From assembly GCA_017503015.1 (NCBI GenBank), contig JAFVTX010000009.1, positions 1 through 64,000 on the forward strand: a stretch of 64,000 nucleotides of DNA, read 5' to 3'. Below, in pieces: positions 22,949 to 57,790 of the stretch (the first letter of the stretch is position 1; each line of letters opens with the position of its first letter). This DNA is from Fibrobacter sp. GTDB lineage: Bacteria; Fibrobacterota; Fibrobacteria; Fibrobacterales; Fibrobacteraceae. The notes beneath the pieces are model-generated. The model did no database searches. It was not told where the DNA came from and saw only the letters and a list, made by a program, of their open reading frames with translations. Both the position numbers and the translations under genes were made by a program.

Positions 22949-24340
22949 GTGCACGGATGCTATATTTTCTCCGTGATTTGTGAACTTTCCATAGAAAAAC
23001 TGGTGCAGGGGGGCGAGGGACTTGCCCGCCTGGACGACGGTCGCGTGTGTTTTGTGCGGGGAGGACTCCCCGGGGAACGCTGCCGGGTGGAACTGACCAC
23101 GGGCAAGAAGGACTTTGCACGGGGTCGGGTGGTGGAAGTGCTGGAAAAGAGCGCCGACCGCGTGCAGCCCCGCTGTCCATTATATGGGAAATGCGGTGGC
23201 TGTAGCTTGCAGCATCTGGACTCCGCGAAACAGGTTCCATACCTGGAACGGGTTGAGCGGGAAAACTTCAAGCGGATAGCCCATCGGGAATTGCCTGCGA
23301 ACTTCAAGATTTATCAGGCCGAACCCTGGGGCTACAGGAACCGGGCCCGGGTGGTTTACCTGGGAGAGCGGGATGGCCGTTGCCGTTTCGGATTTCGCAA
23401 GCAAGAGAGCAACGGAGTGGTGGCCATAGAGAATTGTCCGGTGCTCGCTCCCGGGCTGAACGAATTTTTGAAAAATGCCAAGTCCGCAGATGTTTTCAAG
23501 GGACTGAAGCGAATTCCGAAAGATTTGGAGTTGAACCTGTTCGACGATGGCAGGGGTCGTGTGGCCTACTACTACCGTGGTATGCCCGAATCCCGCAGGC
23601 AGGAGTGTTCCGTCAGCACCGTCAAGATGGGCGGAAAAGAAATTGTAAGCGATGCCTCCGTGTTTTTCCAGAGCAACCTTTCCCTGTTGCCCCGTCTGGT
23701 AGAGTCCGTGCGGGAGGCTGTGGACGAGGGCATTGCCTCGGGCGCGGCGTCAGACCAGTGGCTGATAGACCTTTTCAGCGGTGTCGGGTTCTTTGCCGCC
23801 ATATTGCAGGACAAGTTCAAGCGGGTCACTACGGTGGAACGGGAACCGCTGTGCCTTAGGTATGCGAAGGTTAATTTATGTGGAAACGGGGGCGTTGCGG
23901 GGGTGTCCCCCGCAGAGAGGGTAGCGGAAGCGGCGGAGAGCTCGCTTTCGAAGCAGGGACAACAGGGGGATCCCCGCCTGCGCGGGGATGACAAGAAGGT
24001 GGTGAAGGAGGACAGCCGCTGGAGCGAGGGGGAGGCTTCCCCCTTTACGCAAGTAGAAAACGTCTCTGCGCCGGCGGAGGAATGGCTCGCGAAAAACGTG
24101 GTGGACAAGCCAGCTACCCTGATAGTGGACCCTCCCAGGACGGGGCTTCCGCCGGAGGCACTTACGGCAATTGTGAAGAGTTCCGTGAACCGGCTGATTT
24201 ACGTTTCTTGCGACCCGGTGACCCTGGCCAGGGATTTTGCAAAGTTCAGTACGGCGGGGTTTACCCTGAAACGTGCAGAAGGTTTCGCCTTTTATCCCCA
24301 GACGCCCCATCTGGAAATGATGTTCGTGCTTGCCCGCTAG
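22949..24340 (+). CDS. rlmD: 23S rRNA (uracil-5-)-methyltransferase RlmD-like, with an inserted palindromic element
   Basis: TRAM-like N-terminal domain (GEGLARLDDGRVCFVRGGLPGE), a [4Fe-4S] cysteine set (CPLYGKCGGC plus ENCPV), SAM motif DLFSGVGFFA, and the catalytic nucleophile in IYVSCDPVTLARD. RlmD/TrmA-type enzymes methylate uridine C5 in 23S rRNA (U1939 for RlmD) or tRNA; the rRNA target is inferred. The start could be ATG 22949 or GTG 22973. Residues about 312-368 are encoded by a composite repeat element (23888-24045) between two conserved helices, which makes the protein about 50 residues longer than usual. Confidence 0.85.
   Translation: MHGCYIFSVICELSIEKLVQGGEGLARLDDGRVCFVRGGLPGERCRVELTTGKKDFARGRVVEVLEKSADRVQPRCPLYGKCGGCSLQHLDSAKQVPYLERVERENFKRIAHRELPANFKIYQAEPWGYRNRARVVYLGERDGRCRFGFRKQESNGVVAIENCPVLAPGLNEFLKNAKSADVFKGLKRIPKDLELNLFDDGRGRVAYYYRGMPESRRQECSVSTVKMGGKEIVSDASVFFQSNLSLLPRLVESVREAVDEGIASGAASDQWLIDLFSGVGFFAAILQDKFKRVTTVEREPLCLRYAKVNLCGNGGVAGVSPAERVAEAAESSLSKQGQQGDPRLRGDDKKVVKEDSRWSEGEASPFTQVENVSAPAEEWLAKNVVDKPATLIVDPPRTGLPPEALTAIVKSSVNRLIYVSCDPVTLARDFAKFSTAGFTLKRAEGFAFYPQTPHLEMMFVLAR
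23888..24045. repeat. Composite three-hairpin palindromic element inserted in rlmD
   Basis: Three perfect or near-perfect hairpins lie in series: gcggggg/cccccgc (23897-23913), atccccgc/gcggggat (23970-23989) and aggggga/tccccct (24027-24044). The left, middle and right blocks match those at 57091-57243 almost exactly; the spacers differ. It is translated as a Gly/Ala/Ser/Lys-rich peptide (ERVAEAAESSLSKQGQQGD). The frame stays open on both strands across most of it. Confidence 0.85.
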
Positions 24341-56562: not shown

Positions 56563-56598
56563 AGTAGCGAGTTATGAGTTACGAGTTACGAGTTGTTG
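56563..56598. repeat. Word array (gagttacgagt)
   Basis: gagtagcgagttatgagttacgagttacgagttg is a direct array of the gagttNNgagtt words. It lies in the short gap between the helicase-like gene and gluQ. Confidence 0.72.
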
Positions 56599-56624
56599 AA
56601 TAGGGGTTTCTTTGGACTTCTTTT

Positions 56625-57608
56625 TTACAGATTTCGGCAGACGATGTCCAGGGCGGTATCTAGGTCGGTGGGCGCTTGGGTGGAGGCAAGTCCTGCCTTG
56701 AAAAGGACCCGGCCTAAGAGCTCTTGGGGGGTGACGCCTGCTTCCCGGTCTTGCCTGATACTGTGGGCTTTTTCCCGCTTGGAAAGTTTTTTGCCTGCCG
56801 GGTCCACGACGAGGGGGTGGTGCAGGTACTTGGGCGGTTCGGTCCTGCCCATCAGTTCCATCAGGGCGATTTGCCTTGCGGTGGAATTCCGTATGTCTTC
56901 GCCCCGGATAACATGGGTGATTCCCTCTTCGATGTCGTCGACGCAGACGGCGAATTGGTAGGTCCATTGGCCGACCCTATCCCGGATAGGGAAGTCCCCG
57001 CATTGGAGTTTCGGATTTTCGGCAAAGTCCCCTAGGCGTAGGTCGTGCCAGTTAATTACTTTGTCTGGAATCTTGATTCGGAGGGAGTGGGGGGCGTTGC
57101 GGGGGGAACCCCCGCTGGAGGGGGTAGCGGAAGACGCATGAATATCCCCGCCAGGTTGATGGGAGATCCCCGCCTGCGCGGGGATGACAAGTAAGTGGCG
57201 GGGATGATATGTGGCTGCAGCGAGGGGGAGGCTTCCCCCCTTGCATTTTCCTTGGTATATGATTTCGCCAAATTCGTTCTTTGGATTTTGTTCTTCCAGC
57301 TCCTTGCGGCTGCAGTAGCAGGGGTAGACCAGGTTTTGTGCTTCAAGGTTCTTGAGGGATTTTTCGAACCTGCCGAAGTGGTCGCTCTGGAGGCTTTCGC
57401 TTTGCCACTTGAAGCCAAGCCATTGCAGGTCTTCGCGGATGGCGGCGATGTGTTCGGGCCTTGACCTTTCCTGGTCGTGGTCCTCGATGCGCAGGTGCAC
57501 CGACAGGTCCCATTTTTTGGCGGCGGCCCACACGTACAGGGCCGAAAGCAGGTGGCCTTCGTGGAGGTAGCCGGTGGGGCTGGGCGCAAATCTGGTTTTT
57601 CCGTTCAC
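56625..57608 (-). CDS. gluQ: Glutamyl-Q tRNA(Asp) synthetase with inserted palindromic element
   Basis: Matches GluQRS: RFAPSPTGYLHEGHL (HIGH motif), zinc ligands Cys97, Cys99, Tyr118, Cys122 (YPCYCSRKEL...YQGKC), and KKLSKREKAHSI (KMSKS type). It charges glutamate to queuosine of tRNA-Asp. Residues about 124-174 (SLPLAAATYHPRHLLVIPAQA and on) are encoded by the element 57091-57243, inserted between the zinc site and LRIKIPDKVI. All key motifs are outside it. The start at 57608 has ATG. Confidence 0.9.
   Translation of the reverse strand: MNGKTRFAPSPTGYLHEGHLLSALYVWAAAKKWDLSVHLRIEDHDQERSRPEHIAAIREDLQWLGFKWQSESLQSDHFGRFEKSLKNLEAQNLVYPCYCSRKELEEQNPKNEFGEIIYQGKCKGGSLPLAAATYHPRHLLVIPAQAGISHQPGGDIHASSATPSSGGSPRNAPHSLRIKIPDKVINWHDLRLGDFAENPKLQCGDFPIRDRVGQWTYQFAVCVDDIEEGITHVIRGEDIRNSTARQIALMELMGRTEPPKYLHHPLVVDPAGKKLSKREKAHSIRQDREAGVTPQELLGRVLFKAGLASTQAPTDLDTALDIVCRNL
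57091..57243. repeat. Composite three-hairpin palindromic element inserted in gluQ
   Basis: Hairpins gcggggg/cccccgc (57100-57116), atccccgc/gcggggat (57167-57186) and aggggga/tccccc (57224-57241). The order and end sequences are those of the rlmD copy at 23888-24045, but relative to the gene it is inverted. It is read on the minus strand as the LLVIPAQAGIS-type peptide. Confidence 0.85.
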
Positions 57609-57617
57609 GGGGGGAAA

Positions 57618-57790
57618 ATATAGGTAATAGGGGATAGGTAGTAGGTTGTAGGTATTTGGGCTGACGGGGACTAGAAGATTTAATGTGCAAGGGGTCGTGA
57701 GTTTTGAGTTGTGAGTAATGAGTTTTTATAATCGCGCCATTGGCGCCAAATTACATACTGACGACTCATAACTGACAACTCATTACTAAT
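57618..57790. repeat. Two word arrays between gluQ and the 57854 gene
   Basis: 57618-57660: complement of the cctacaacct family (taggtagtaggttgtagg). 57692-57720: gtgagttttgagttgtgagtaatgag; 57760-57790: ctcataactgacaactcattac, the inverse. A triloop palindrome gcgcc-att-ggcgc is at 57734-57746. Confidence 0.75.

Follow-up and report, generated by a model that had tools for sequence, protein, structure and literature searches.

Small palindromic repeats are usually specific to one lineage. Two kinds are known to lie in frame within unrelated housekeeping genes whose homologues are uninterrupted in relatives: the Rickettsia palindromic elements (RPE) and the intragenic REPs of the CGTC and GTAG types (PMC3733652), both of which have RNA-modifying enzymes among their targets. 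A different kind of fold is represented by intrastrand triplex motifs, which, with sequences other than those described here, fold in vitro and mark unstable loci in E. coli (PMC4666352). The G-rich skeleton that is the subject of this analysis is undescribed in the databases and literature searched, yet its copies are scattered through genomes of several unrelated phyla of bacteria. Rfam 15 contains no family above the gathering threshold for it, and its own strings turned up in no paper in text searches.

The element was encountered in the window, a 64,000-nucleotide stretch of a Fibrobacter genome. There, rlmD (22949–24340, plus strand), a 463-residue ORF for a 23S rRNA uracil-5 methyltransferase with Pfam TRAM and tRNA_U5-meth_tr matches, is interrupted in frame by a 158-bp block at 23888–24045 (plus strand), which a single open frame crosses. 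In gluQRS (56625–57608, minus strand, 327 residues) the Pfam tRNA-synt_1c match likewise falls into two stretches, and the frame stays open through a related block at 57090–57239 (plus strand). An earlier note on this DNA had proposed that the blocks are two copies of one composite element, and end-to-end alignment bears this out: the score is 158.5, against 33.5 for the reverse complement, with a BLAST E value of 7e-20 over 156 of 158 bases. The shared strings it quoted occur in both copies at the places it gave, and no other part of the window has the full set; the peptides it read from the complementary strand, HHLLVIPAQAGI and RHLLVIPAQAGIS, are as described; and the orientations relative to the host gene do differ, sense in rlmD and antisense in gluQRS, with both keeping frame. 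The recurrence in gluQ thus stands, and only its bounds of 57091–57243 required correction to those above.

The composite block consists of two different repeat families, one nested in the other. The left, middle and right modules that had been proposed are all present but are not equivalent, since left and right form one skeleton while the middle is an independent and commoner REP. The skeleton is 71–90 bp long and is laid out as GGGG, spacer, stem 1, linker, G-run, stem 2 and G/C hairpin, giving an L hairpin, stem 2 and an R hairpin. Form B reads GGGG-CGTT-(GCGGGG..CCCCGC)-AGA-GGGGGTAG-(stem 2)-(GGGGGAGGCTTCCCCC), and form A has GGGG-TTT-(TAGGGG..CCCCTA). A GTAG or GGAG tag adjoins stem 2 in most skeleton copies, and some have TGG or TGAT. 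In the rlmD copy, all on the plus strand, the form-B left module (23888–23921; CM R1, 62.8 bits) comprises the mirror repeat GGGGCGTTGCGGGG, stem 1 (23897–23913), a linker and G-run 3. It is followed by the 5' arm of stem 2, TAGCGGAAGCGGC (23922–23934), the middle module M (23970–23995), the 3' arm, GCCGCTGGAGCGA (24015–24027), and a right module of G-run 4 plus the hairpin GGGGGAGGCTTCCCCC (24028–24043). The corresponding parts of the gluQRS copy, again on the plus strand, are a form-B left module (57090–57133; 65.9 bits), module M (57166–57191) and the right hairpin (57224–57239). On anatomical grounds, the element was judged to have neither an integron attC nor an inverted REPIN layout.

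Module M (GGAGATCCCCGCCTNCGCGGGGATGACA; the "VIPAQAGI" module) has about 90 copies in the genome, many with neither left nor right module alongside; its 26 bases gave 89 matches with up to three mismatches in the 2.96 Mb draft, compared with none for a reversed-pattern control. Copies of M within a skeleton occupy the tip of stem 2, and those read all point the same way. Its stem, ATCCCCGC-4 nt-GCGGGGAT, starts with AT and encloses a loop within the 4–5 nt of CGTC-1 REPs (PMC3733652). Its tag is mostly TGTC and sometimes CGTC, with CTCC as the opposite tail. This sequence organisation appears to fit the CGTC-1/dRS3 class: like the CGTC-1 REP and Neisseria dRS3, module M has a stem, a loop and a (C/T)GTC tag on one side, but the CGTC-1 REP has a CCA tail, whereas module M ends in CTCC, mostly carries TGTC and is nested in another element. 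The peptides predicted from the inserts in RlmD and GluQRS include GGVAGVSPAERVAEA and LLVIPAQAGI, and such insert peptides may be kept in the mature protein. Two further repeats were seen. A nested hairpin module, CCTTTGACCACTTAGCGCTTCAGCGCTTATGTGGGCATGGCCACCTTTAGGTGGTGTG, lies within stem 1 at four sites of the genome (C64:26130–26224, C46:72262–72355, C46:79625–79718 and C57:52785–52878), and short GAGTTATGAGTTACGAGTTA-type repeats beside genes, at 56570–56600 and 57680–57790 of the window, represent another intergenic repeat type of the genus.

Alignment of RlmD and GluQRS from relatives, which the earlier note had suggested for finding the exact ends, revealed both occupied and empty sites. 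Protein searches of 80 Fibrobacter genomes, with DNA alignments, placed the rlmD insert in five species (G000, the genome analysed here, and G007, G047, G055 and G073), while the site is without the composite element in G048, G049, G050, G056, G068 and G014. A single gain after the split from G048 fits the tree of the flanking coding DNA. In G068 (L119) a different repeat, SGSPDHCPGQALAGMTKDG, occupies the same position, apparently as an independent insertion into the same loop, and the site is therefore regarded as tolerant. Between species the rlmD insert differs at 0–3 of 158 sites, while its flanks differ mostly by 7–9% (one closer pair 4%) and their third positions by 16–20% (insert against flank, Fisher p 2e-6 to 2e-3). 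Conversion between copies or constraint at the nucleotide level could explain this near-identity, but not every copy is more conserved than its flanks, the C74 copy diverging by 4.1% compared with about 2.6% around it. In an AlphaFold model of RlmD (11 sequences, a shallow alignment; mean pLDDT 64.5), the insert joins a helix to a strand of the methyltransferase fold and has a pLDDT of about 25–48, which fits a disordered surface loop. In gluQRS, a long form containing M is found in G000, G055 and G047, a 75-bp short form (left module, stem and right module, without M) in G048, G007 and G073, and an empty site in more distant species. Since G007 has the short form and its sister G047 the long form, the interior of this insert has changed more than once.

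Copies in the draft genome were counted from model and pattern searches together with the stretches around matches. There were 42 matches to the form-B model and 45 to the form-A model, amounting to about 73 distinct skeleton copies, of which those read comprise about 31 of form B and about 42 of form A. The form-B model also has matches in 79 of the 80 Fibrobacter genomes. Genic status was judged by spanning open frames and Pfam, because codon-usage scoring of the flanks misses genic copies such as that in rlmD. Spanning frames that shadow other genes (for example C26:71714 and C11:30398) were rejected as non-coding. The earlier description of an element invading coding genes holds for ten of the roughly 73 copies, eight internal and two near C-termini, the remainder being intergenic or unproven and most copies being intergenic. 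The internal hosts are rlmD, gluQRS, coaBC, hrpB, an rlmL-like gene, tilS, a TonB receptor and a GT4 glycosyltransferase. In tilS, a lone REP module (DSRLRGDD; C3:33426–33451) and a skeleton copy (C3:33579–33629) lie in frame at two sites.

The net length of eight of the ten genic copies is a multiple of three (3n; one third expected, p=0.003), whereas all copies together are evenly distributed among length classes. All three sense genic copies use one frame, which is their sole open frame. The seven antisense genic copies also share a single frame, with other frames open in six (product of chances 0.007). Selection that keeps readable insertions accounts for the length class and the frame of the sense copies; from the antisense frame use, in these few copies, a bias in insertion phase is possible.

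The stems of the skeleton co-vary. Native stem 2 pairs more stably than recombined halves both across phyla (mean -11.9 against -7.7 kcal/mol; z -15.9; 0/300 chimeras) and within Fibrobacter (-8.8 against -5.3 kcal/mol; z -8.7; 0/300 chimeras), in permutation tests that, like the shuffles below, make no correction for copies being related. The outer pairs of stem 1 are TA/TA in 34 copies, GC/GC in 24 and TA/TT in four, with no mixed pairs; alignment A1, in which forms A and B are out of register at stem 1, was left out, and A4, in which stem 2 aligns poorly, was not used for pair counting.

Both halves of the skeleton are also mirror-symmetric in their G-run, spacer and G/C hairpin, and GGGGCGTTGCGGGG is a perfect mirror repeat. 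G-runs 3 and 4 are of equal length in 38 of 42 unique cross-phylum cases (27 expected; 0/20,000 shuffles) and in 23 of 33 Fibrobacter cases (16.7 expected; 82/20,000 shuffles), and the next two bases are mirror-matched in 16/42 and 23/33 respectively (6.7 and 13.9 expected). An antiparallel purine-motif triplex needs such symmetry between a G-run and the G-strand of the hairpin that follows. Plain Watson–Crick alternatives fail for the A/G part of the mirror covariation, as the changed bases lie at the wrong end of the C-run. When fitted as a triplex, the second half has its whole stem as the loop, and the first half needs one C*C.G triad. Most folds computed for individual copies, as DNA or as RNA, do not beat shuffled sequence (z=-3.1 in one of four DNA folds), because G-runs pair promiscuously; the programs omit triplexes. 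The symmetry suggests that each half may fold as an intrastrand triplex.

At orthologous sites the element is either near-identical or has had its tip or left module swapped whole. At C14, form A in one genome corresponds to form B in another with the remainder almost identical, and at C74, C44 and C26 the interiors differ.

Beyond Fibrobacter, a scan of the form-B left module across the genomes of 84,980 species found at least 120 loci. The matches listed come from Treponema, termite-gut Spirochaetaceae, Prevotellaceae, Chitinispirillia, Myxococcales, Oscillospiraceae, several Alphaproteobacteria and others, many of the records being metagenome bins, so that single assignments may be wrong. 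The R hairpin and stem 2, which were absent from the search pattern, trail the left module in most of the cross-phylum matches printed. Whole-genome searches gave at least 150, 149, 140 and 137 matches in four of these genomes and 0–4 in alphaproteobacterial ones. In-frame copies using the same two peptide frames occur in a Treponema carA (L437), in a purF (L482), in a large membrane-protein-like ORF (L370) and in a Fibrobacter binding protein (L408). Plasmid copies were found in Sphingomonadaceae, Agrobacterium, Magnetospira and Treponema. Viral contigs gave 11 matches, compared with none for the reversed pattern, and a form-A search of them gave nothing. Seven Microviridae records have the G-run, stem 2 and right half at the end of a small gene; in bajarodmic virus 342 (L510:1501–1551) and six relatives, this half-element ends the gene that precedes the pilot protein gene. 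It may be a terminator, and may hint at where the element came from. In one Prevotellaceae genome (Ct408_bin72; L517–L536) at least 150 near-identical skeletons, many of them beside AATCACTA-type repeat arrays, represent a recent burst, and the unit conserved in that genome extends about 8 bases to the left of GGGG and about 20 bases beyond the right hairpin. Alphaproteobacterial copies (L400, L407, L477 and others) have CTCTCACTCT-like DNA that abuts the left module on its upstream side and may be a further conserved component in this class.

The skeleton is thus multicopy, lies at many sites that are occupied or empty between related species, and occurs in frame within genes; both of its stems show covariation, and at orthologous sites whole tips and left modules have been swapped. 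The favoured reading, to which a probability of roughly 0.7 is given, is that such skeletons are small fold-back insertion elements, non-autonomous and forming a new family. Each half would consist of a G-rich third strand folded back onto a G/C hairpin in an intrastrand triplex-like structure, which probably arises while the DNA is single-stranded in replication; a trans-acting enzyme would move the folded strand. Selection would then purge genic insertions unless their net length is 3n, their frame is open and their site is a permissive protein loop; housekeeping enzymes would thereby come to carry low-complexity Gly/Ser/Pro/Ala loops. CGTC-type REPs would settle in the exposed tip of stem 2, producing the composite seen in rlmD. 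The single-copy folds, and the negative results below on a mobilising enzyme and on target-site duplications, count against this reading. A bolder extension is offered tentatively, as being rather doubtful: the skeleton would be a kind of mobile DNA that ranges across phyla and moves as a double intrastrand triplex, in which a stem connects two G-run/hairpin units. In gut and soil bacteria it would be copied among replicons, plasmids and phages, with a preferred coding phase by which proteins survive and inter-copy conversion maintaining near-identity.

Two other explanations are about equally improbable. One attributes movement to a RAYT-type (TnpA-REP, Y1/HUH) transposase acting on hairpins with GTAG or GGAG tags. 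REP-tag-like sequence does precede stem 2 (GGGGGTAG), the R hairpin in several phyla (CGTAGGGGG) and module M (GGAG), and Y1_Tnp is found in 27 of 80 Fibrobacter genomes. However, the sole Y1_Tnp (IS200/RAYT-like) match in the genome analysed here (C38:62808–62996; L061) is truncated with an in-frame TAG, and Y1_Tnp is absent from G007, G047, G048, G055 and G073, though each has 24–32 form-B matches; no mobilising enzyme was found in these six. Copy number is not associated with the presence of Y1_Tnp (Mann-Whitney p=0.40), and in non-systematic inspection no copy of the element was seen to flank such a gene. Target-site duplications were neither recognised at the rlmD and gluQRS sites nor evident in the Prevotellaceae genome, and no inverted termini were seen in the copies read.

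The other is that the skeleton is a functional structured RNA or terminator, selected and copied as a regulatory part rather than as a parasite. Strong stem covariation, the T-rich DNA often found 3' of the R hairpin and the near-identity of the rlmD insert between species all favour it. They have to be weighed against the lack of an Rfam match, the presence of both orientations within genes, the free exchange of tips and left modules, and copy numbers that vary from 0 to at least 150 per genome. A further proposal, that only known CGTC/dRS3 REPs and locally grown slippage hairpins are involved, with no separate skeleton family, is very unlikely. Module M is CGTC-1-like and abundant, and CGTC REPs are known within genes without a dedicated transposase (PMC3733652), but M is also found alone and skeletons free of M exist (the gluQRS short form, C18, C41, C45, C30 and other phyla), which largely refutes the proposal. 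A conserved protein insertion domain or an assembly error, the outcomes that the earlier note had said would overturn it, has only the open frames in its favour and is refuted by an rlmD insert that is present in five independent assemblies and absent from other Fibrobacter species, and by the recurrence of this DNA between genes and, in either orientation, within unrelated genes.

The element first noticed in rlmD and gluQRS is therefore confirmed as real but is larger than had been described, a wide-ranging skeleton combined here with a known kind of REP; as claimed, it is a dispersed palindromic element, once or still mobile and inserted in frame. Relatives have empty sites, and the element is not confined to this lineage. 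One skeleton spans Fibrobacterota, Spirochaetota, Bacteroidota, Myxococcota and Pseudomonadota. Its copies in frame within RlmD, GluQRS, TilS, HrpB, CoaBC, CarA and PurF amount to many natural insertion experiments, and empty and occupied alleles in near relatives may show how proteins accept foreign loops. Because of its mirror symmetry, it also lends itself to asking whether mobility and local rearrangement are driven by triplex-like folding of DNA.

In behaviour, by analogy rather than by sequence comparison, the element resembles the Rickettsia palindromic elements. In-frame insertion and empty sites in relatives make that reading apt, but too narrow. Known REPs are single hairpins of 20–40 bp, whereas the skeleton is a two-part G-run/hairpin unit with a sequence of its own. 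Like the E. coli motif TM-ECO (Holder 2015, PMC4666352), it has three successive G/G/C blocks that could form a purine-motif triplex, is multicopy and is linked to local rearrangement. The TM-ECO consensus CCCTCNCCC..GGGNGAGGG..GGGNGAGGG is nevertheless not matched by the skeleton, the block order being C-G-G in the former and G-G-C in the latter and the sequences unrelated; moreover, the skeleton is two units joined by a stem, and its copies also lie inside genes, while TM-ECO is always intergenic in E. coli. With the pneumococcal BOX elements (PMC3049150), which are probably non-autonomous parasites, it shares nested insertions and modular ends (boxA and boxC in BOX) around a dispensable or repeated middle (boxB), but it is set apart from them by its anatomy, with no terminal inverted repeats or target duplication seen, and by its cross-phylum range.
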